A stretch of DNA of 50,406 nt from Ignavibacteria bacterium GWC2_36_12 (GCA_001802795.1 MGZZ01000125.1:1-50406); one strand, 5' to 3'; shown: positions 6,961-33,411, counted from the stretch's first letter. The notes: generated by a model from the letters alone, not told the origin. A program made the numbers and translations.

Positions 6961-9056
6961 TGAAGAAGAAGATTATTGCATTTTTTAAAAAGAACCCCGG
7001 CAAATCTTTTAAAAATAAAGATATAGCCAATAGACTAAAGATTATTTCCGAACATGAGTATTCTGCATTAAAATCCGCCCTGCACAAACTTTACGAAGAA
7101 AATTTTTTAGCAAAAAACGGTAAGCGCTTTAAACTCAACACTATTCCAGCGGACAATAGGATAACGGGTAAACTTGAGATTAACCAGGGAGGATATGGTT
7201 TTGTAATTCCGGGCAGTAAAGAGATAGGTGACATTTTTATTGCCGCTCGCAATCTAAGTACTGCTTTCAGCGGAGATACTGTTGAAGTTGCACTTTTTGC
7301 CAAACAAAAAAGAAAAAATTTTGAAGGACAAATTATTAAGGTTATAAAAAGAAAAAGAGAAGAGATTGTTGGAACCCTTAAGAAATCCAATTCATTTTAT
7401 TTTGTAAAACCGGATGATCCCGGGATTCATCGCGATATTTATATTGATATTTCGCATCTAAAGGGTGCAAAAAAAGGAGATAAAGTAATTGTATCCAATT
7501 TATTCTGGAATACATCTATGCTGAACCCCGAAGCCGAGATTATAGAAGTAATCGGTGAATCAGGATTAGAAGAGACAGAAGCTATAGCAATAGCACGTGA
7601 ATTCAATTTACCATATAAATTTCCGGATAAGGTAATTGCCGAGGCTGATAAGATAGAAAGTGAAATATCACCCGATGAGATAAATAGAAGAGTCGATTTT
7701 AGACATGAAAATGTTTTTACAATTGATCCGGAAGATGCTAAAGATTTCGACGATGCGTTATCGGTTAAAGAACTAGAGAACGGGAATTATTTAATAGGCA
7801 TTCATATAGCTGATGTCAGTCATTATGTTAAAAACAATACTCAGTTGGATAAGAATGCTTTGAAGAGAGGGAACAGTGTTTATTTTGTGGGACAGGTTAT
7901 TCCAATGCTTCCGGAAAAGCTTTCTAACAACCTCTGTTCGCTTGTTCTGGCAAAGGACAGGCTGACATACTCGGTTATTGTTGAATTGACACAACGAGGT
8001 AAGATAGTTAAATACGATATAAAGAAGTCTGTGATAAATAGTAAAAGAAGATTTACGTACGATGAAGTACAGGAGATAATTGAAACTAAAAAAGGTGACT
8101 TTGCAAAAGAAATAATTTGTTTAAATAATATTGCAAGGGTGCTAAGGAAGAAAAGATTTAGAGAGGGAGGAATTGAATTTTTTACGCCCGAAATTAAGTT
8201 CAGGCTGGATGACGAAGGGAAACCGACAGAAATTTTTAAAAAGGAAATAAAAGAAAGTAATATGCTGGTTGAAGAATTTATGCTTTTTGCAAATAAAACA
8301 GTTGCCCATCATATAGGTTCCCCCGAAAAAACTGCACGTCCTTTTATTTATAGGATTCACGATTTACCAGACAAAGAGAAAATTTATGAATTTGCAAGGT
8401 TTTTGAAATCATTAGGTTATACTTTTGACCCAAATTCTGCGTCGCAAACATTACAGTTTATGAACCTCATGGAACAAATAAAAAATACCGAAGAAGAGGC
8501 ATTAATAAATGAGCTCGCAATCAGGTCAATGGCTAAAGCTATCTATTCTGTGAACAATATTGGACATTACGGGTTAGGGTTTAAATATTATACTCATTTT
8601 ACATCTCCCATAAGAAGGTATTCTGATTTAATTGTTCACAGGCTTCTTTATAATTATATAGAGGGAAACGGAGCCGCAAATTACCCGTTGGTAAAGCTGG
8701 AAGAAATTAGTGAACACATTTCCCAGTGTGAAAGAAACGCTATAGAAGCCGAAAGATTATCTGTAAAACTAAAGCAGATAGATTATCTTAAAGAACATCT
8801 CGGTGAGGAATTTAATGCGATAATTAGTGGTATTGCACATTTTGGAATTTTTGTTAAAATAACAGACAATTTAGCAGAAGGGTTGGTAAGATTGAGAGAT
8901 TTGGAGGGCGATTTTTACGTTTACGATGAAAAAAAATATGCATTAATTGGTAGAGTTTCTAAAAAACAATTTAGATTAGGTGATAAAGTTAAGGTAAAGC
9001 TTGTTCGTGTTGACACTGACAAAACAGAATTAGATTTTATAATTTCTAACGAGTGA
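6960..9056 (+). CDS. rnr: ribonuclease R (RNase II/RNB family 3'-5' exoribonuclease)
   Basis: 698 residues. Processive 3'-5' exoribonuclease for structured RNA decay and quality control. Domain order is classical: N-terminal winged helix (about 1-65), cold-shock domains (about 70-210), RNB catalytic domain (about 240-570) with the four-Asp metal site in IDPEDAKDFDDAL (about residues 254-266) and HFTSPIRRYSDLIVHRLL, then a C-terminal S1 domain (about 610-695, GEEFNAIISGIAHFGIFVKI). Its ATG shares a base with the TGA of tamB (TGATG), so translation is likely coupled. It overlaps the upstream-most possible GTG start of the next gene. Confidence 0.95.
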   Translation: MKKKIIAFFKKNPGKSFKNKDIANRLKIISEHEYSALKSALHKLYEENFLAKNGKRFKLNTIPADNRITGKLEINQGGYGFVIPGSKEIGDIFIAARNLSTAFSGDTVEVALFAKQKRKNFEGQIIKVIKRKREEIVGTLKKSNSFYFVKPDDPGIHRDIYIDISHLKGAKKGDKVIVSNLFWNTSMLNPEAEIIEVIGESGLEETEAIAIAREFNLPYKFPDKVIAEADKIESEISPDEINRRVDFRHENVFTIDPEDAKDFDDALSVKELENGNYLIGIHIADVSHYVKNNTQLDKNALKRGNSVYFVGQVIPMLPEKLSNNLCSLVLAKDRLTYSVIVELTQRGKIVKYDIKKSVINSKRRFTYDEVQEIIETKKGDFAKEIICLNNIARVLRKKRFREGGIEFFTPEIKFRLDDEGKPTEIFKKEIKESNMLVEEFMLFANKTVAHHIGSPEKTARPFIYRIHDLPDKEKIYEFARFLKSLGYTFDPNSASQTLQFMNLMEQIKNTEEEALINELAIRSMAKAIYSVNNIGHYGLGFKYYTHFTSPIRRYSDLIVHRLLYNYIEGNGAANYPLVKLEEISEHISQCERNAIEAERLSVKLKQIDYLKEHLGEEFNAIISGIAHFGIFVKITDNLAEGLVRLRDLEGDFYVYDEKKYALIGRVSKKQFRLGDKVKVKLVRVDTDKTELDFIISNE

Positions 9057-23370: not shown

Positions 23371-23781
23371 TTACCTCATCAAAATTTCTATAGCCCATTT
23401 TCTGAACCTCTCTAATCTCTTCCACATTTCTTTAGTTTGAGAAGTAGAATACAATTCACCTAAGTAAGATACTTTTGTTTTTTCCTCAATTAACCTTCTG
23501 AGCTGGTTTATTGCTTTGGATTTTTCTTCACCTTCGGCAACGGAATTTTCTAATAAGTTTACAGCTTCCTCATGATCCTCACCAATGCTTTTAACTCCTG
23601 CCAGCTTTATACACAAAGAATCTGTATAAGCTATTGCAGAGTGAACAATAAGAACACCGGCAGCCGTCCAGTATTCCAATTCCATTGAATCTTTAGCTGC
23701 CTCATAAAAATGTTCCGCTACATTTTCATATTCTTTATAACGATTACGAGGTACAGACTTCCTACCCCTTCTTTTAGCCAT
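23371..23781 (-). CDS. HEPN-like protein paired with nucleotidyltransferase
   Basis: 136 residues, mostly helical, with a basic N-terminus (MAKRRGRKSVPRNRYKEYEN). VLIVHSAIAYTDSLCIKLAG and KAINQLRRLIEEKTKVSYLG resemble the helical core of HEPN partners of minimal nucleotidyltransferases. The usual catalytic Rx4-6H motif is not visible in the expected last helices, so if it is HEPN it is a degenerate or non-catalytic member. It overlaps the nucleotidyltransferase by 8 bp on the same strand, an arrangement typical of MNT-HEPN toxin-antitoxin pairs, and ends four bases before the livM fragment. Confidence 0.65.
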   Translation of the reverse strand: MAKRRGRKSVPRNRYKEYENVAEHFYEAAKDSMELEYWTAAGVLIVHSAIAYTDSLCIKLAGVKSIGEDHEEAVNLLENSVAEGEEKSKAINQLRRLIEEKTKVSYLGELYSTSQTKEMWKRLERFRKWAIEILMR

Positions 23782-24385
23782 TTAATAAGCCTTTAGGACT
23801 TTTCCCGGTAATTAATATTCCTTCATTAGCTATACTTCTTATCAATTTAGATTTGCTTTTTCTAATGAATTCAGATTTTAGAAAAAACACCGGAGCTAAT
23901 TTAATTCCAAATCTCTTATACAACATCTGTGATTTTTTATTTAGTAGATCACCGACATTAAGTCTTTCTATCGGATGATTGACAATGCAACAAATATCTA
24001 AATCCGAATTAATGTTTTCTTCTCTTCTTGCGGCACTTCCAAATATTACGGCACTATAAACTTGTTTTTTAAGTATTGATGCAAGTGTATTTATTATTTC
24101 ATTTGGGAAGCTGCTTTCAATTCCAAATACTTTAAGGATAGCCTCCTGTACCAAAAAATGCTCGCGGTTTAGACTAAATATATGATCTCTGCCCCCTATC
24201 TGTCTGTTTACAATACCAAGTCCTTCTAATAATGTTAATGCTTTCAAAGCTGAATTTGGGTGCATACTTGCAGCCCGTGCAACCTCATTCCCTGTAAATC
24301 CGGTATTGGTATCTAACAATGCACGGATGACAGCAACATTAGACCATGTTCTGAACACTTCATCAAAAGCTCTATATATAATCAT
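23774..24385 (-). CDS. winged-helix/minimal nucleotidyltransferase (MNT-type antitoxin or regulator)
   Basis: 203 residues with two domains. About 1-85 is a winged helix: FTGNEVARAASMHPNSALKA is the recognition region and HIFSLNREHFLV the wing. About 105-190 is a Pol-beta-type nucleotidyltransferase with VIFGSAARREENINSDLDI, the GSx10DxD active-site motif in full. In characterised pairs such as MntA/HepT the enzyme AMPylates the HEPN toxin. Here the DNA-binding domain suggests it also represses its own promoter, and two palindromes lie just upstream of its start codon. Gene order (nucleotidyltransferase first, overlapping HEPN) supports a two-gene operon. Confidence 0.75.
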   Translation of the reverse strand: MIIYRAFDEVFRTWSNVAVIRALLDTNTGFTGNEVARAASMHPNSALKALTLLEGLGIVNRQIGGRDHIFSLNREHFLVQEAILKVFGIESSFPNEIINTLASILKKQVYSAVIFGSAARREENINSDLDICCIVNHPIERLNVGDLLNKKSQMLYKRFGIKLAPVFFLKSEFIRKSKSKLIRSIANEGILITGKSPKGLLNG

Positions 24386-25121: not shown

Positions 25122-28100
25122 ATGATTGAATTACTACCCGTTCCTATTAAAAAGTCTATCAATAAAGCTTATCTTAAAATTAAGCCGGTAAGAGAAGATT
25201 TTCAAAATTTCAGGAAAGAGCTGCAAAAACTCCTTTCACTTATAAATGAAGAAGAATCTGAAGAGCACAATAAAAAGCATATAATTTCATTTTTTGAAAA
25301 CACTTTTTATACGGATAGATATGTTAATACAAAAGGAAGAACTGACCTTGCAATCCATTTAGATAAAACAGGCGGAAGTTTTGTTGGTGTAATTATAGAG
25401 ACTAAAAGTCCTGTTAATAAATCCGATATGATCTCGGAAGATAATCTCAATTGTAAATCAATGCACGAGGTTATTCTTTATTACTTAAGAGAAAGAATTG
25501 AACATAAGAACGATGAAATAAAAAATATTATAATTACAAATGCTTATAAATGGTTTATCTTCAAAGCTGACCAGTTTGAAAAGCATTTTTATAAAAGTGC
25601 TCTTAAAGATGAATATGAAAAGTGGCGGGATGATAAAAAAGTAAGCAGTCTTAATGAGCATTTTTATAATGATATTGTTAAAAAGTTTCTGGATGAAACC
25701 GATGCCGAAATTGAAGCAGTATATTTTGATTTAAGAGATTTCTGGGAATCCACCCCTTCGGGGGAAAAATATTTTAATAATGAGAATGAAAAGGAACTCA
25801 TTTCTCTCTTCAAAAAATTCTCTCCGCCTGAACTTCTTAAAGAACCTTTTGCAAATGACAGCAATACTTTAAACAAACAATTTTATTCCGAACTGCTTCA
25901 TATTATCGGGCTGGAAGAATATAAAGAGAAGAGCAAAAAGAAGATTACAAGAAAGAGAGAAAACAGGGATAATGGTTCGCTGATTGAGAATACGATAAGA
26001 ATACTTGAAACCAAGGATGTATTAAAGAATTTTGATGATAAATCTGTTTATGGTGAAAATGAAGAGGAGCAATTATACAATATTGCACTTGAGCTTAATA
26101 TCATCTGGATAAACAGGATTTTATTCCTCAAGCTGCTTGAAGGGCAGCTTGTTAATTATCATGATGGAGATGAAAACTATAAGTTTTTAGAGCCGAATAT
26201 AATTAACCAGTATGATGATCTTTTTGAGCTTTTCCATCAAGTGCTTGCTGTAAAAATTGAGGAAAGGAACTCCGGTTTAAGCGGCAGGTTCAGCAAAATA
26301 CCTTATCTAAACAGCTCATTGTTTGAGCTGAGCGAGATTGAAAAGAAAACTATTGATATTGCGAGCCTTAAAAACAAAGTTAATCTCTTCTTCTATAAGA
26401 ACACTATTTTCGGCAAGGACGTTCAATCTAAAGGTTTCCCTCCTGCACTCGAATATCTTCTTTTATTTCTTAATGCTTTCGATTTTGCTTCCGAGGGGAG
26501 CGATGAGATTCTCGAAGAGCGAAAGACAATTATAAATGCTTCTGTACTCGGACTTATTTTTGAAAAGATAAACGGTTATAAGGAAGGCTCTTTCTACACT
26601 CCAGGATTCATAACTATGTATATGGCTCGTGAAACTTTAAGACGTGCTATTGTTCTGAAGTTTAATGAAGTAAAAAATAAGGCATACAAAGATTATGATG
26701 AACTGAAAAGAAATATAGATACGTCTTCTGATGGAAGAGAGGAAGCGAATAAAATTATTAACTCTCTTAAGATTTGCGATCCTGCAGTTGGTTCCGGGCA
26801 TTTTCTTGTTTCCTGCCTTAATGAAATAATTGCAATTAAAGCTGACCTCAGAGTCCTGAATTACAGGGATGGAAGACAGGTTCAGAATTACAGCTTAGAA
26901 ATTGAAAACGATGAATTGATAATAACCAATGAAGAAACAGTTGAATTGTTAGATTATCATTTAAATCCTTCGGGCAAACAAGTAACGGCTTTACAGGATC
27001 TGCAGGAAGCTTTATTCCACGAGAAGGAAACTATTATTGAAAACTGTCTCTTCGGTGTTGATATAAATCCTAACTCTGTCAACATCTGCCGTTTGAGGTT
27101 GTGGATCGAGCTTCTTAAAAATGCTTACTATACCAAAGAGAGCAATTATACCGAGCTTGAAACTCTGCCGAACATTGATATTAATATTAAGCAGGGAAAT
27201 TCTTTGATAAGCAGGTTTGATGTTAAGCAGGATATGTTCACTTCTGCTGATAAAAGTGTACTTGATGTTTACAAGCTTAATGTTGCGCTCTATAAAGATG
27301 AGCAGGATAAAAATAAAAGACGTGAACTGAAAGATTCCATTGAAAGGACGAAGGAAAGATTTAGGGGAATAGCTCTTGATCCTTTATATAAAGAAAGAGA
27401 GCAGATGGAAAAGCTTACAGAACAATTGCACAAGCTGAACATTGATAATCCTCTTTTTAAGCATGAAGATACTGCTGAGAAAGAAGCTGAAGTTGAAAAG
27501 AAAAGAAATAACCTGATAGCAAAAATAGAAAAGCTCTCAAAGGAAATTGAAGATAAAGCAGAAGAATATAGCTCAATCTATTCAAACTCTTTTGAGTGGC
27601 GATTTGAATTTCCTGAAGTGCTTGATGAGGAAGGAAATTATAAAGGATTTGATGTGGTGATTGGGAATCCGCCATACATCAGACAAGAAGAAATAAAATA
27701 CTTGAGCAATTATTTCAAAGAAAAATATATTTCTTTTTCTGGAAAAGCTGACATATATGTTTACTTCTATGAATTAGGAATTACACTACTTAAAACTTAT
27801 GGTGCGTTAACTTTTATTTCTTCCAACAAATTTCTTGAAACTAATTATGGAAAAGCATTATCAAGACATTTAGCAGAATCTTTGAGAATAATTAATATAA
27901 GAGATTTTAAAGACCTGGAAGTTTTTGAGGGTGTATCTGCATATCCTTTAATATTTGAAGGTACAATTTCGGATGAAAAGGAATATCAGTTTCATTATGC
28001 TAATATTAAAGATATTACACCATTGAAATCTGATCCATTTCATGATATTGATATAGTTAATGTTAATATAAAATCTTTTATTAAGAATGATTATAAAGTA

Positions 28101-28886
28101 ACTAATGACTCCGTAAATAGGTTATTAAATAAAATAAATAAAAATTCTCAACAACTTGAAAAAATATATGCTCTACCAGTGGTTGGAGTTAAGACTGGTT
28201 ACAATGATGGTTATCTTAATTCAGATATTGAGTCCGAATTAAGTAAGCCTTACGTATTTGGAAGAGATGTAAAGAAGTATGAACCGGTGATAGCAAAAAA
28301 TAATATCATATTTCCATATGATGATAAATATTGTTTGGTAGAATTAGAGAAGTATCCAAAAGCGAATTCATATCTTCAGCAGATAAAAGAAAATTTGTCT
28401 AATAGGGCAATAATTAAAGAAGGATTAACAAATCATACTAAGCTATGGTATGAATATCAACAAATAAACAAAACAATTAATATCAAAGAGCAGCATATTA
28501 TTTATCCAAATGTTTCTTTAGGCAACAATTTTTCGTTAGTAGATCATGCTGTTGTTGATATGACCTGTTTTCTGATTAAGACTGATAGTAAATTCTTGTT
28601 AGGACTTCTAAACTCAAAACTTGTTGAGTACTTAATGAAATTGTATGCTGTTGGAAGACGTGGTGGTTATTTAGAATATAAAGTTCAATACATTAAAAAA
28701 ATACCCATTAAGGTTTTTAATAAAGAAGAGAATATACTTTTTGAAGAACTCGTTAATAATATACTCAAAGAGAAATCTAAAAGTTCAAGTACAGATACCA
28801 CAGTCTTAGAAAAACAAATAGATGAAATGGTTTATAAGCTTTATGGATTGACGGAAGAGGAGATAAGGGTGGTGGAGGAGAATTAA
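25122..28886 (+). CDS. type IIG restriction-modification enzyme (Eco57I/class I methylase type)
   Basis: 1,254 residues in one intact frame. The N-terminus is a PD-(D/E)xK nuclease: GRTDLAIHL with Asp75 and VIIETKSP with Glu93-Thr-Lys95. A helical connector follows. The N6-adenine methylase core has motif I DPAVGSGHF (from Asp553) and motif IV NPPY (849-852). The last ~300 residues form the target-recognition domain, with TaqI-like features (YVFGRDVKKYEPV, LLGLLNSKLVEYLMKLYAVG). One polypeptide therefore cuts and methylates, with specificity set by its own C-terminus. It heads a co-directional cluster with three HEPN-motif genes, 48 bp before the first. A BREX PglX-type methylase is less likely because the nuclease motif is present and other brx genes are absent. 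Confidence 0.85.
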   Translation: MIELLPVPIKKSINKAYLKIKPVREDFQNFRKELQKLLSLINEEESEEHNKKHIISFFENTFYTDRYVNTKGRTDLAIHLDKTGGSFVGVIIETKSPVNKSDMISEDNLNCKSMHEVILYYLRERIEHKNDEIKNIIITNAYKWFIFKADQFEKHFYKSALKDEYEKWRDDKKVSSLNEHFYNDIVKKFLDETDAEIEAVYFDLRDFWESTPSGEKYFNNENEKELISLFKKFSPPELLKEPFANDSNTLNKQFYSELLHIIGLEEYKEKSKKKITRKRENRDNGSLIENTIRILETKDVLKNFDDKSVYGENEEEQLYNIALELNIIWINRILFLKLLEGQLVNYHDGDENYKFLEPNIINQYDDLFELFHQVLAVKIEERNSGLSGRFSKIPYLNSSLFELSEIEKKTIDIASLKNKVNLFFYKNTIFGKDVQSKGFPPALEYLLLFLNAFDFASEGSDEILEERKTIINASVLGLIFEKINGYKEGSFYTPGFITMYMARETLRRAIVLKFNEVKNKAYKDYDELKRNIDTSSDGREEANKIINSLKICDPAVGSGHFLVSCLNEIIAIKADLRVLNYRDGRQVQNYSLEIENDELIITNEETVELLDYHLNPSGKQVTALQDLQEALFHEKETIIENCLFGVDINPNSVNICRLRLWIELLKNAYYTKESNYTELETLPNIDINIKQGNSLISRFDVKQDMFTSADKSVLDVYKLNVALYKDEQDKNKRRELKDSIERTKERFRGIALDPLYKEREQMEKLTEQLHKLNIDNPLFKHEDTAEKEAEVEKKRNNLIAKIEKLSKEIEDKAEEYSSIYSNSFEWRFEFPEVLDEEGNYKGFDVVIGNPPYIRQEEIKYLSNYFKEKYISFSGKADIYVYFYELGITLLKTYGALTFISSNKFLETNYGKALSRHLAESLRIINIRDFKDLEVFEGVSAYPLIFEGTISDEKEYQFHYANIKDITPLKSDPFHDIDIVNVNIKSFIKNDYKVTNDSVNRLLNKINKNSQQLEKIYALPVVGVKTGYNDGYLNSDIESELSKPYVFGRDVKKYEPVIAKNNIIFPYDDKYCLVELEKYPKANSYLQQIKENLSNRAIIKEGLTNHTKLWYEYQQINKTINIKEQHIIYPNVSLGNNFSLVDHAVVDMTCFLIKTDSKFLLGLLNSKLVEYLMKLYAVGRRGGYLEYKVQYIKKIPIKVFNKEENILFEELVNNILKEKSKSSSTDTTVLEKQIDEMVYKLYGLTEEEIRVVEEN

Positions 28887-28934
28887 TATTAGATATGTGA
28901 TCAAAATATTAAATGACTATATAGGTAGAAAATT

Positions 28935-29429
28935 ATGAGTGATGAATTACCTCTGCTGTTTTTAGGTGGATTAATTGGTGCTGGTTTAGCTGCGCCCAAG
29001 CCATCTGAAACTGTAGCAATAAAAGATTATAATCGAATATTTGAATTCATAGATAAAAGAAAAAGAGGATTAGGTGATTTTACAATAGAACCTTTTTTAT
29101 TATATGATAAAAAAGTTTTTAATGTATTAAACGAAGCTTTTCAAATGTATTTAAATGGTTCTAATAAAGGAAGTTCTTTCTTATGTATTGCTATATTGGA
29201 ATCAAAATTAAGAGAAAAATATGGGATGAAAAATTTTGAAGAAATGATCCTTAAAGCCAAAGAAGATAAATTAATCTCATCAAGTCAATTTCATTTCTTA
29301 AATGGTTTAAGAATTGACAGAAATTTTATAGTACATAATATATTTGAAGAATTTTCAGAAGAAGATGCCCAAATTACTTTTAGATTAGTTATCCGCTTCT
29401 TGAACAATCTATATAAATGGAATGAATAG
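28935..29429 (+). CDS. HEPN-motif protein 1, putative ribonuclease
   Basis: 164 residues. The N-terminus (LLFLGGLIGAGLAAPKP) is small and hydrophobic and could be a membrane-associated helix. The remainder is helical. FLNGLRIDRNFIVHNIFEEF holds R129-N-F-I-V-H134, the Rx4H active-site motif of HEPN ribonucleases, followed by a long helix ending LVIRFLNNLYKW, as in HEPN/DUF4145-like folds. It follows the restriction gene by 48 bp and its TAG shares a base with the GTG of the next gene, so the two are probably translated together. Cleavage target and exact family are unknown. Confidence 0.65.
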   Translation: MSDELPLLFLGGLIGAGLAAPKPSETVAIKDYNRIFEFIDKRKRGLGDFTIEPFLLYDKKVFNVLNEAFQMYLNGSNKGSSFLCIAILESKLREKYGMKNFEEMILKAKEDKLISSSQFHFLNGLRIDRNFIVHNIFEEFSEEDAQITFRLVIRFLNNLYKWNE

Positions 29430-30592
29430 TGAAGGATAAAATAGACAATCAAACAATAAGATTACTAATAAGAACCAAACTATTACTCCATCATGCCATT
29501 GAACATGCATTAAAAAAAACCGAAATAGATTATTTAATTTCTTTCCAAGGTTTAGACACAGTAATAGAAAATTTATTAAGACAAATAATTAGTTATTTAG
29601 ATTTTGAGAATAAAATTAAAGGGGATTTAGATCGCTTAGATTTAGCAAATTTGGCAAGTCAGCTGAATAATTTATTAATATCCGAATTTAACCTAAAACT
29701 ACCTTACTTATCAGATATTAAATTACTTAGAAAAACTCGTAATTTGATTCAGCATGGTTTAGTGAATCCTGGCATTGAGTTAGAACGTTTTGTAAAGATT
29801 ACAAAAAAATGTTTTAGTTACTGCATAGTGAATATATTTAAATTGTCTGATATTGATCTGGATGATTATTTACTTATTAATAATGTAATCGTAAAAAACC
29901 ATTTAAAAAAATCAAAAGATTTTTATTTAAATAAAAAATATTTTGCTTCAGTTGTTGCATCAAGAGATGCATTTGAGAACACTTGGTATGAAATAATAAA
30001 ATCATCTGAAATAAATCATTCATCACTTTCTGCTATAATTGAAGCAAAAAAAGATACAAAGTTTTATTCTGAGTTCTTTGCAAGGATAAAAAATGAACTA
30101 ATACTCACAAAACTGAACATTGATTCAAAAGCCAATGAATTATTTGAAGATTATTTAAACCATATTCCACATCAATATAGGGCAGATAAAATGAGTATTC
30201 AAACAGTAATGCAAAGGGAATGGAATGAGAATGATGCATTATTTTGTTATGAATTTGCCTTCGACTTCATTTTGAAATATCAAAACGCTATTAATGAACC
30301 ACTGTACAGAATAACACAAACCTTTAAAAACTCTTCTAATTATAAATACGGGAATATTGAAATTTCTAAAGGATCGGAAGGGCATTTATCTTACTTATAT
30401 TCTGATGAACTTAAAGCACATGAGATGTTATTACTTTATGTAAACAATTCTCTTAAGCATAGGTTAGAAAAATTGATACCTGGGAAAAAATACTTGCTTG
30501 TTAGTGAAGGTTATCTTGAAAAAAGATTAGAATCATTAATTAAGTATTCAACGATTCTGCATAATATATCATTTGAACTAGGTAACAAATAA
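29429..30592 (+). CDS. HEPN-motif protein 2, putative ribonuclease or partner
   Basis: 387 residues starting at a GTG inside the previous stop (TAGTG). The N-terminal ~130 residues are helical and contain LLRKTRNLIQHGLVNP, giving R104-N-L-I-Q-H109, another Rx4H HEPN motif. The larger C-terminal part (about 150-387) has no family I recognise and no transmembrane segment; it includes NKKYFASVVASRDAFENTWY, which could be a second degenerate helical bundle. Codons are strongly A/T-biased compared with the flanking housekeeping genes. The one-base overlap with the HEPN 1 gene suggests a complex of the two. Confidence 0.6.
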   Translation: MKDKIDNQTIRLLIRTKLLLHHAIEHALKKTEIDYLISFQGLDTVIENLLRQIISYLDFENKIKGDLDRLDLANLASQLNNLLISEFNLKLPYLSDIKLLRKTRNLIQHGLVNPGIELERFVKITKKCFSYCIVNIFKLSDIDLDDYLLINNVIVKNHLKKSKDFYLNKKYFASVVASRDAFENTWYEIIKSSEINHSSLSAIIEAKKDTKFYSEFFARIKNELILTKLNIDSKANELFEDYLNHIPHQYRADKMSIQTVMQREWNENDALFCYEFAFDFILKYQNAINEPLYRITQTFKNSSNYKYGNIEISKGSEGHLSYLYSDELKAHEMLLLYVNNSLKHRLEKLIPGKKYLLVSEGYLEKRLESLIKYSTILHNISFELGNK

Positions 30593-30611
30593 TCCTCCAC
30601 GTTGGCAGACT

Positions 30612-30878
30612 ATGTTGTGGTTTGAATATGTCCCTTTTTCATGGTATAGAACAGATTATATAAACGGGAAAATAATTAAGCAATCAGTCAATATTAATAC
30701 AGTAAGTTTGAAAAATTTTAAGCAAAATTTTAACTGGATTGTTTCAGATGATAAAGCAATAAAAATATTAAATCTTCGCAAAGCTTTGGGCAAAATAAAA
30801 GATATTGACGACTTGAAACAGATTAAAGGCTTAACAAATAATGAAATTGAATGGATAGCAAGGTTTACTCATACATAA
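30612..30878 (+). CDS. small hypothetical protein in the HEPN cluster
   Basis: 88 residues, 19 bp after the HEPN 2 gene on the same strand. The N-terminus is aromatic (MLWFEYVPFSWYRTDYINGK). The C-terminus, LRKALGKIKDIDDLKQIKGL followed by TNNEIEWIARF, looks like one or two short helices that might form a helix-hairpin-helix. No HEPN motif, no signal peptide and no recognised family. No ribosome binding site is obvious, so it could be spurious, but spacing and strand fit an operon member. Confidence 0.45.
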   Translation: MLWFEYVPFSWYRTDYINGKIIKQSVNINTVSLKNFKQNFNWIVSDDKAIKILNLRKALGKIKDIDDLKQIKGLTNNEIEWIARFTHT

Positions 30879-30933
30879 TACCTGAATAATACATATTGAA
30901 GATAGATAAAAAATTTAAGTGAATAAGTAATAG

Positions 30934-32568
30934 ATGAATTTAAACGAATACGGAGAAAGATATTTACAAGAAAAGGATTTTTTAACATTATGTGAGGATT
31001 GTGAAATAAAAATTTTGAATTCGTCAATTGATTCAAAAGTTCTAACTGAATTTGAGAAATTAAAAGCATTATTACCCGATTTTATAATTAAAAAATCAAA
31101 AAGATTCGAAGAATTCTGTTATAGAAATAACTATGATCATAACTTTAATTTAGTTTTTCCCAAAAAATACCTAAACCTAAAAGAAAACATAGAAGCGTAT
31201 TTATATTGGCATTATAACAATCAGATTTTCCATCCTTTCGATAAAAAGAAAATCTCATCTTTTATAAGGATACCTAGTCGTCATAGATATAATCAGGGGA
31301 AGTTCAAAATTAACTATGAGGGCGAAACTGTAACCTTGGAAAGAAATCTTGGATTTTATTCATATTGGAAAATATATCCACTTTTTGAAATGTTGGACTC
31401 ATGCAAACTAAACTATCATATAAATATTTTTAATGAAAAAACATTTAGACAATTTATGAAGTTTCATTTACCATATAAGAGAATTCATAGATGGAGCTTG
31501 CCTGACAATCCAAAGTTTATAATTGATGAATACGAAAAATGGTTTAAGTATTTTGACTTTTTATCGTTTTATGTTCAGGCTATCAGAAATATTCATACTA
31601 CTTATAATCCCAGTCCTAGAAGTATATATACTCTGCATAATATGGAGCAAGAAAAATATAAATTATTTATGAAAGAGCGTGAAAGAAAGATTACCCAAAC
31701 AACTTTAATAAAATATAAAATCGAAGAGAGTGAAGTTTTTAATTTCTTGAGGTTCTTAATTCAAAAATTCTTTGAATTCGAAAAGCTATCAAAGGAAAAA
31801 TTATGTACCTGTATTCGCAATGATATAGAATATTTAATTATGTTTATTCGAGTTAGTTATGGTTATGATTTGGAATGCGTATATAAGAGGATTGGAAGAG
31901 TACGATCAATTATTTATTTACATCCTTTAGAATATATTGTAGAAGGTAAATCAGCTTTAGCACGAGAACATCTATTCAGAGCAATTAAAGAAGAAGTTCA
32001 AAGATGCTTTAAAGAAATTGATGTCCCTGTAGAAGAACAATCAGTAAATCGCTTTATTCAATTCTGCAAGCGAAATTATTTATCAACTATTTATTCTGCA
32101 ATTTACGATGTTAGTTGGGGCAAATATGAATACAATAACATTATAAATAATCTCACAATACTTGCAATGAATTATGAAAGATTTATTAAGACTATTTATA
32201 AAACAGACATGAATAAAGAAACAGAAACTCTTCTTCCTTCATTAAGAAAATATTTTAACTTACCAAAGTTATTGCATTATATTTTATCAGGAAAGAAATG
32301 GCCGGAAATGACCAAAGCAAATAATTTAGATTTGGCTTCAAGAATTAAATCGATTAATATATATATAAGGATGATACCTAAAGAATATCAAGAAATAGCT
32401 ACTACAATATTTTATATTGGTGTAATTAGAAATTATATCGCACATTATGGTGATACAATATCTTTTAGAGAATTAGCGCCTGAAGATTGTTTTAATAAAA
32501 TAATGGGGGCTTTTTGGTTTACTTGGATTTATGCTGAGAAAAACTATTTGAAAGAAGAAAATTATTAA
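30934..32568 (+). CDS. large protein with C-terminal HEPN motif, otherwise unrecognised
   Basis: 544 residues, soluble, rich in Lys, Tyr, Ile and aromatic residues. The first ~450 residues match no family I know; notable stretches are YWHYNNQIFHPFDKKK, IRIPSRHRYNQGKF and RHRYNQ-like basic patches that could contact nucleic acid. Near the C-terminus TIFYIGVIRNYIAHYGDT contains R499-N-Y-I-A-H504, the Rx4H motif, followed by a last helix (IMGAFWFTWIYAEKNYL). This makes it the third HEPN-type gene in the row. Its final codons run into a DUF2188 fragment in another frame, so the cluster boundary lies here and the original C-terminus may have been longer or shorter. Confidence 0.6.
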   Translation: MNLNEYGERYLQEKDFLTLCEDCEIKILNSSIDSKVLTEFEKLKALLPDFIIKKSKRFEEFCYRNNYDHNFNLVFPKKYLNLKENIEAYLYWHYNNQIFHPFDKKKISSFIRIPSRHRYNQGKFKINYEGETVTLERNLGFYSYWKIYPLFEMLDSCKLNYHINIFNEKTFRQFMKFHLPYKRIHRWSLPDNPKFIIDEYEKWFKYFDFLSFYVQAIRNIHTTYNPSPRSIYTLHNMEQEKYKLFMKERERKITQTTLIKYKIEESEVFNFLRFLIQKFFEFEKLSKEKLCTCIRNDIEYLIMFIRVSYGYDLECVYKRIGRVRSIIYLHPLEYIVEGKSALAREHLFRAIKEEVQRCFKEIDVPVEEQSVNRFIQFCKRNYLSTIYSAIYDVSWGKYEYNNIINNLTILAMNYERFIKTIYKTDMNKETETLLPSLRKYFNLPKLLHYILSGKKWPEMTKANNLDLASRIKSINIYIRMIPKEYQEIATTIFYIGVIRNYIAHYGDTISFRELAPEDCFNKIMGAFWFTWIYAEKNYLKEENY

Positions 32569-32677
32569 AAACCTGGGCGGGCGTGAGCTAACTACTAAAG
32601 GACTTGATGGTAAAATAAGAAGTAAGGATACATTTGCATCCAAAGACCCAAATCCACCAAAAGATAAAGAACATTAA
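32552..32677 (+). pseudogene. DUF2188 C-terminal fragment
   Basis: This frame, opened only by a stop at 32549-32551, reads KKKIIKNLGGRELTTKGLDG then KIRSKDTFASKDPNPPKDKEH-like residues to a TAA at 32675-32677. GxDGKIRxKD followed by DPNPPKDK is the conserved end of DUF2188 proteins. Their N-terminal half is absent and no start codon is available. The fragment overlaps the last 17 bp of the HEPN gene in another frame. The rest of 32569-32959 holds the pyk fragment and no other gene. Confidence 0.65.
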
Positions 32678-32959: not shown

Positions 32960-33139
32960 ATGAAAAAAGAAAAAGTTATTGAAGTAGCGGAAGAATTGCC
33001 GCAGGAATTTGAGCTGGAAGAATTAATAGAAAAACTGATCTTTATTGAGAAAGTAGAAAAAGGATTAAAGCAATTGGATGAGAAAAAGACTTTGCCCCAT
33101 GAAGAAGCAAAGAAAAAAATTGAAGAATGGCAAAAGTAA
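32960..33139 (+). CDS. antitoxin of RelE/ParE-type module
   Basis: 59 residues, acidic and helical: MKKEKVIEVAEELPQEFELE, then EELIEKLIFIEKVEKGLKQL and LPHEEAKKKIEEWQK. The LPxEFxLEELIEKL and GKTLPHEEVKKKIEEW-type ending recur in small antitoxins of Bacteroidota next to ParE/RelE toxins. Its 3' end overlaps the toxin start by 13 bp, which argues for coupled translation with the antitoxin made first. No separate DNA-binding fold can be recognised. Confidence 0.7.
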   Translation: MKKEKVIEVAEELPQEFELEELIEKLIFIEKVEKGLKQLDEKKTLPHEEAKKKIEEWQK

Positions 33140-33411
33140 TCTGGACTGAGTTAGCCTTAGATGATCTTAAAAACATTTATGAATATATTTCTAAAGACTC
33201 AAAATATTATGCAGCTAAACAAATTGAAAAAATTATTAATAGAATTGAGCAGATAGAAAATTTTCCAAAATCAGGACGAATCATACCTGAATTTGAAAAT
33301 AAATTAATAAGAGAACTAATTGAAGGTAATTACAGAATTGTTTATAGAATTGAATCTGATAACCTTATAGGAATTGTACGTGTTCATCACTCAGCAAAAC
33401 TTATAAAATAA
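33127..33411 (+). CDS. RelE/ParE-family toxin
   Basis: 94 residues. KVIWTELALDDLKNIYEYIS, the FPKSGRIIPEFENKLIREL core, NYRIVYRIE and the VRVHHSAKLI end follow the RelE/ParE fold; Arg residues in SGR and YRI are at positions typical of the family. RelE members cleave mRNA at the ribosome while ParE members poison gyrase; sequence alone does not separate them here. It starts inside the upstream antitoxin gene and ends 58 bp before the convergent pyk stop, at the right edge of the accessory region. Confidence 0.85.
   Translation: MAKVIWTELALDDLKNIYEYISKDSKYYAAKQIEKIINRIEQIENFPKSGRIIPEFENKLIRELIEGNYRIVYRIESDNLIGIVRVHHSAKLIK

Follow-up and report, generated by a model that had tools for sequence, protein, structure and literature searches.

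Can a restriction-modification (RM) enzyme that consists of a single protein chain carry a second line of defence in the genes behind it? Back-up RNases are known best from the neighbourhood of type I RM systems, PrrC-PrrI among them. The question was raised by a locus in Ignavibacteria bacterium GWC2_36_12, within a stretch of 50,406 nucleotides that was analysed as a whole and is referred to here as the window. A first-pass annotation had described a type IIG RM gene in the window followed directly by three consecutive genes for HEPN-type proteins, here named P1, P2 and P3, each with an exact R-N-x3-H string. The features of the locus were as follows.

25122..28886, + strand: type IIG RM gene, 1254 aa.
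28807..28886, + strand: 3' end of the RM gene, encoding VYKLYGLTEEEIRVVEEN, repeated after accessory genes in related loci.
28935..29429, + strand: P1, 164 aa, predicted DUF4145-type HEPN protein with R129-N-FIV-H134.
29429..30592, + strand: P2, 387 aa, candidate HEPN protein with R104-N-LIQ-H109, without a family or usable homologue.
30612..30878, + strand: HHH gene (HHH_3 / ComEA-like), 88 aa, helix-hairpin-helix.
30934..32568, + strand: P3, 544 aa, undescribed type-IIG-associated family, candidate HEPN RNase.
32552..32677, + strand: apparent relic of another gene's 3' end, GGRELTTKGLDGKIRSKDT..., directly after P3, recognised by its reading frame.

The RM gene in the window is an intact type IIG gene, with nuclease, methylase and specificity domain in a single chain. 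Its reading frame was open across 1254 aa and gave a full-length match to PADLOC REase_MTase_IIG (1.8e-247). In Pfam, the N-terminal part matched DUF7149 (9e-81) and DUF7814 (4.9e-80), followed by the Eco57I methylase (7.1e-37) and the TaqI_C specificity domain (4.5e-8). The PD-(D/E)xK-like residues D75 and E93xK95 were retained, methylase motif I (DPAVGSGHF) began at residue 553, and NPPY began at residue 849.

The residues, coordinates and strand that had been reported for the RNxxxH strings were exact for all three predicted proteins, and the one-base overlap between P1 and P2 was confirmed. The three genes did lie on the same strand behind an intact RM gene, but the 88-aa HHH gene at 30612-30878 between P2 and P3 had been overlooked; the gene order was RM-P1-P2-HHH-P3, so that P3 was the fourth gene after the RM gene. 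The HHH protein matched Pfam PF12836 (2e-7) and TIGR00426 (1.2e-6, below the cut-off of that model). The relic after P3 gave no Pfam match with its 41 aa and was DUF2188-like by eye. A promoter and terminator scan of the locus yielded promoter matches no better than those in shuffled sequence. Two other toxin-type features bordered the RM island. On the opposite strand, a HEPN/MNT pair (23371-24385, -) adjoined it; the HEPN-like gene of this pair lacked Rx4-6H and matched Pfam HEPN below the cut-off (0.0029), and the nucleotidyltransferase overlapped it, possessed an N-terminal HTH-like part and matched PADLOC PDC-M05A (6.4e-15). At the right edge lay a ParE/RelE-type toxin gene (33127-33411, +; PF05016, 2.9e-19), preceded immediately by a small frame that may encode an antitoxin.

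The RNxxxH strings were RNFIVH in P1 (R129-H134), RNLIQH in P2 (R104-H109) and RNYIAH in P3 (R499-H504). In related loci, 292 predicted proteins with a total of 126,922 residues contained RNxxxH 12 times. At this background of one per approximately 10,600 residues, the chance of the trio was near 3e-5 (0.015 x 0.036 x 0.050 = 2.8e-5 at the lengths of the three proteins). Roughly every second protein contained the looser R-x4-6-H, which was uninformative alone. P3 also contained a second RNxxxH, RNNYDH at residues 64-69, which was not conserved; a single string is therefore weak evidence, and it was the conservation of residues 499-504 that counted.

P1 matched Pfam PF13643 (DUF4145) at 4.8e-5, above the gathering cut-off, over residues 67-151, a region spanning RNFIVH, and matched PADLOC AbiV weakly (2.1e-4). 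Judged by its HEPN-clan profile together with Rx4-6H, P1 belongs to the HEPN superfamily. DUF4145 is a HEPN-clan family in which about 80% of members retain the motif, and it occurs in R-M operons (PMC3710099). P2 had no HEPN or other useful family match in Pfam, PADLOC, NCBIfam or PHROGs, and genome searches found no close relative; the sole match, a weak one in the genome G140, had housekeeping surroundings and looked spurious. In the best explanation P2 is probably a further HEPN protein, with a presumed HEPN fold and RNase activity. Searches with Pfam, PADLOC and NCBIfam found no P-loop domain and no recognisable sensor or ATPase in P1-P3, and no nucleotidyltransferase gene lay beside them, so the three genes differed from HEPN-MNT toxin-antitoxin pairs. 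IMG/VR and plasmid searches returned no matches to P1, P2 or P3, and phage records returned none to P1 or P3; at E<=0.01, P1 had no homologue in phage or plasmid records.

A search by single sequence or profile that covered approximately 1,000 different genomes from the phylum found P3 in four loci only: the window, L003 (genome G148), L010 (G393) and L016 (G650). In all four, a type IIG RM gene preceded P3 on the same strand. In L003 the two genes overlapped by 4 bases, with the P3 start within the RM stop region; in L010 they were separated by 2 bases; and in L016 they again overlapped by 4 bases. A further contig search returned one P3 relative, which was already among the four loci, and weak matches in G560 and G074 had housekeeping surroundings and appeared spurious. 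The homologue in L016 (6414-8100) was frameshifted into frames of 409 and 172 aa, which points either to an error of assembly or to loss of the gene's function.

The P3 protein of the window was 25-28% identical to its relatives in the three other genomes. Those of G148 and G650 were approximately 80% identical, while other pairs shared 25-37% over their full length. Because G148 and G650 were so similar, the four loci represented about three independent pairings of P3 with an RM gene. The RM partners in L003, L010 and L016 belonged to another type IIG subfamily, composed of HSDR_N, Eco57I and TaqI_C. Since the partners spanned both the DUF7149/DUF7814 and the HSDR_N subfamilies, the association of P3 with type IIG genes outlives a change of the RM enzyme. 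A type IIG RM gene with P3 forms the conserved unit. P3 and its relatives matched no family in the Pfam, PADLOC, NCBIfam or PHROG models, and, as far as searched, neither the family nor its pairing with type IIG enzymes seems to have been described before.

The co-occurrence expected of the HEPN genes and the restriction gene thus held for P3, in four of four loci and abutting or overlapping in three, but did not extend to its neighbours. P1 and P2 were absent as companions from the other P3 loci, P2 had no reliable homologue at all, and the order RM-P1-P2-HHH-P3 was seen nowhere besides the window among the loci examined. Three HEPN genes as one unit thus found no support; P1, P2 and the HHH gene look like further cargo acquired in the lineage of the window.

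Across the C-termini of the four proteins, 15 positions in 149 columns were invariant, including R499, N500, A503 and H504; were invariance random, all four motif residues would be invariant with a probability of about 1e-4. A conserved A-x-WF-x-W-x-YA followed the RN..AH. The invariance of R499, N500, A503 and H504 is the best evidence for RNYIAH as a putative active site. Structure models added little. The P3 model was helical but had a mean pLDDT of 40, having been built on a two-sequence alignment, and that of P2 residues 1-154 was helical but with a pLDDT of 49; both were too poor for a claim of fold, and a Foldseek search with the low-confidence fragment of P2 returned nothing at E<=0.001. 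The low-confidence P3 model had the motif closing a helix, the position that it takes in HEPN proteins. The helical context ascribed to the strings was thus predicted, but with low confidence only. An all-against-all hhalign comparison of P1, P2, the P3 C-terminus and 266 neighbouring proteins gave no link among the three, and none from any of them to ApeA or DUF3644. The HEPN identity originally assigned to all three proteins was upheld by profile for P1 and favoured for P3 by a motif conserved in remote relatives, while P2 and P3 had no HEPN profile match.

We surveyed the slot behind the RM gene in 13 other loci of the class whose DUF7149-type RM gene was intact and whose sequence beyond it could be read. 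In L040, an ApeA gene (HEPN_Apea; 7122-8558, -) followed the RM gene after a gap of 10 bases. In L039 (5213-8594), an AAA_13/PrrC-like protein (PDC-S06) and then a DUF3644 HEPN protein (PDC-S19) came after the RM gene, a predicted PrrC-like set-up that involves a type IIG enzyme. The slot was occupied by SIR2-HerA in L038, by the Qat ATPase QatA in L042, by an OLD/AriA-like ATPase in L050, and by proteins of no known function in L037 and L046; the remaining loci had ordinary genes, or no accessory gene, in the slot. The protein in L046 (7888-8805, 305 aa) matched phrog_37995 (function unknown) at 1.2e-52. By family model, a HEPN type was present in the slot at three loci: the window, L039 and L040. 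The varied contents of the slot therefore indicated that type IIG genes here often carry a downstream second defence gene. The association did not run the other way: of 20 further HSDR_N-type RM loci, only one had a HEPN-like gene behind the RM gene (L081, in genome G649 of the genus of the window), encoding 317 aa with RNKIIH and a weak HEPN_Swt1 match below the cut-off (0.036). In the order, the majority of type IIG RM genes had no HEPN gene behind them. The first-pass interpretation was borne out in part: the general pairing of type IIG with HEPN recurs in the class with ApeA and DUF3644. The idea of HEPN proteins as a second layer at RM loci dates from 2013 (PMC3710099).

Our preferred reading, toward which we lean if only slightly, is that a second defence layer is attached to a type IIG RM locus, with the downstream HEPN-type proteins acting as back-up toxins. 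The single-chain RM enzyme would first cut unmodified phage DNA. Should phage anti-restriction proteins block the enzyme, or should DNA cutting be overwhelmed, the back-up toxins would then cleave cellular or phage RNA via the R-N-x3-H site, and growth would stop before phage multiplication. Similar to PrrC-PrrI, the RM enzyme would restrain the HEPN-type protein, which would be released once the enzyme was blocked or overrun. The model takes its pattern from PrrC-PrrI and from what has been proposed in general for HEPN proteins linked to RM genes (PMC3710099). Within it, a HEPN fold and RNase activity for P2 and P3 are inferred, and so are the restraining role of the RM enzyme, the trigger and the protection from phage. 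The recurrence of P3 with type IIG RM genes suggests a built-in second antiviral line, and P3 is the likeliest of the parts to be functionally coupled to the RM enzyme.

The main rival to such coupling is a serious one, which we consider possible though on the doubtful side: the RM 3' end may be a hotspot that gathers unrelated defence and toxin genes, with P1-P3 as independent abortive-infection genes that share the site by chance and lie outside the control of the RM enzyme. A hotspot fits as well as coupling because the slot also takes SIR2-HerA, Qat and OLD/AriA-like genes, in addition to ApeA and the PrrC-like protein with DUF3644, and because most of the type IIG genes in the order are without HEPN. 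The G+C content of P1-P3 (0.27), lower than that of the RM gene (0.32) and of the flanks (0.36-0.37), points the same way, as do copies of the RM 3' end of 37-94 bp and more behind accessory genes in L003, L010, L081 and L100. However, P3 was seen behind type IIG RM genes only, with a start-stop overlap or a 2-base gap in three loci, and it kept this position with two RM subfamilies, whereas a random passenger would be expected elsewhere too.

The copies of the RM 3' end deserve separate consideration. The repeated part of the type IIG 3' end encodes VYxLYGLTEEEIKIVEG, and copies recognisable at the DNA level lay behind accessory genes. They were found after the P3 homologue and at two more places in G393 (L010 4542-8648, -), at 37-94 bp and 85-97% identity; behind both P3 and a DUF559 gene in G148 (L003 11159-14173); after the HEPN-like gene in G649 (L081 3018 and 4658); and behind accessory genes in L091 (3164 and 3532). 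In G496 (L100 2941-6125), five copies occurred in 3.2 kb, with small toxin-antitoxin-type genes between them. In the window the RM 3' end was a single copy. As a control, the repeat pattern read backwards had no match in ten genomes, and assembly duplication was ruled out, as the copies had diverged. The repeats look like either a cassette array or the scars of repeated RM replacement; because their left boundaries vary and some carry palindromic repeat insertions, replacement of the RM gene by homologous recombination fits them as well as cassettes do. We regard as unlikely the fuller reading that the type IIG 3' end is a recombination site collecting back-up defence cassettes, each trailed by a copy of the RM end (40-90 bp, up to five), with P3 as a new RNase toxin family at that site, placed immediately after the RM gene and translationally coupled to it.

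Quite improbable is the reading that P2, P3 or both are something other than HEPN RNases, with coincidental or structural strings and with P3 as an additional RM subunit (serving, for example, specificity, assembly or resistance to anti-restriction), to which the want of family or fold evidence for P2 and P3, the second RNxxxH of P3 and the abutting or overlapping of P3 and the RM gene in three genomes, like a subunit gene, would all conform, but against which stand the invariance of the C-terminal motif amid a poorly conserved region, at a helix end predicted with low confidence, the absence of P3 from most HSDR_N-type IIG RM loci examined, and the fact that type IIG enzymes need no partner.

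If the preferred reading of an attached second layer is true, layered immunity would extend to the simplest, one-protein RM enzymes, with a dedicated RNase-like family following type IIG enzymes across genera and two RM subfamilies. The RM gene and P3 form small two-gene pairs that are easily cloned and tested, and the region just beyond the 3' end of type IIG genes is a place to seek new defence genes.

Anantharaman et al. (2013) linked at least 16 HEPN clades to R-M and proposed a second-layer role for them; coupling is established for PrrC-PrrI and has been proposed for many clades, and the terms IIG and Eco57I are absent from that study (PMC3710099). Our search of the literature found no description of type IIG-HEPN pairs. 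As in PrrC-PrrI, the window locus links the gene of a candidate RNase toxin to an RM gene, with a proposed release on RM inhibition; in contrast, the PrrC-PrrI anticodon nuclease accompanies a type Ic RM system, whereas the window has a type IIG enzyme, candidate HEPN genes in a row and a coupling that is presumed. PrrC and RloC fuse an ABC/AAA_13 ATPase to the HEPN domain, whereas P1-P3 have no ATPase; one was seen in the related locus L039. HEPN endoRNases have also been proposed as last-resort effectors beside BREX and DUF499 systems (PMC12839542), which likewise place a HEPN back-up beside a methylase-based system, while the window has a self-contained type IIG enzyme and no BREX genes. 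In the HEPN-R-M neighbourhoods of DUF4145, ApeA, AbiU2, AbiJ, EC042_2821 and others, solo HEPN genes lie in or beside RM operons, as here. The 2013 neighbourhoods list DUF4145, the family of P1, whereas P3 falls outside all of the family models searched; similarity to DUF4145 and AbiV was confined to P1, above the cut-off for the former and weak for the latter. ApeA in L040 and DUF3644 with the PrrC-like AAA_13 protein in L039 occupied the same slot behind the same RM family, with HEPN families that differ from P1-P3.
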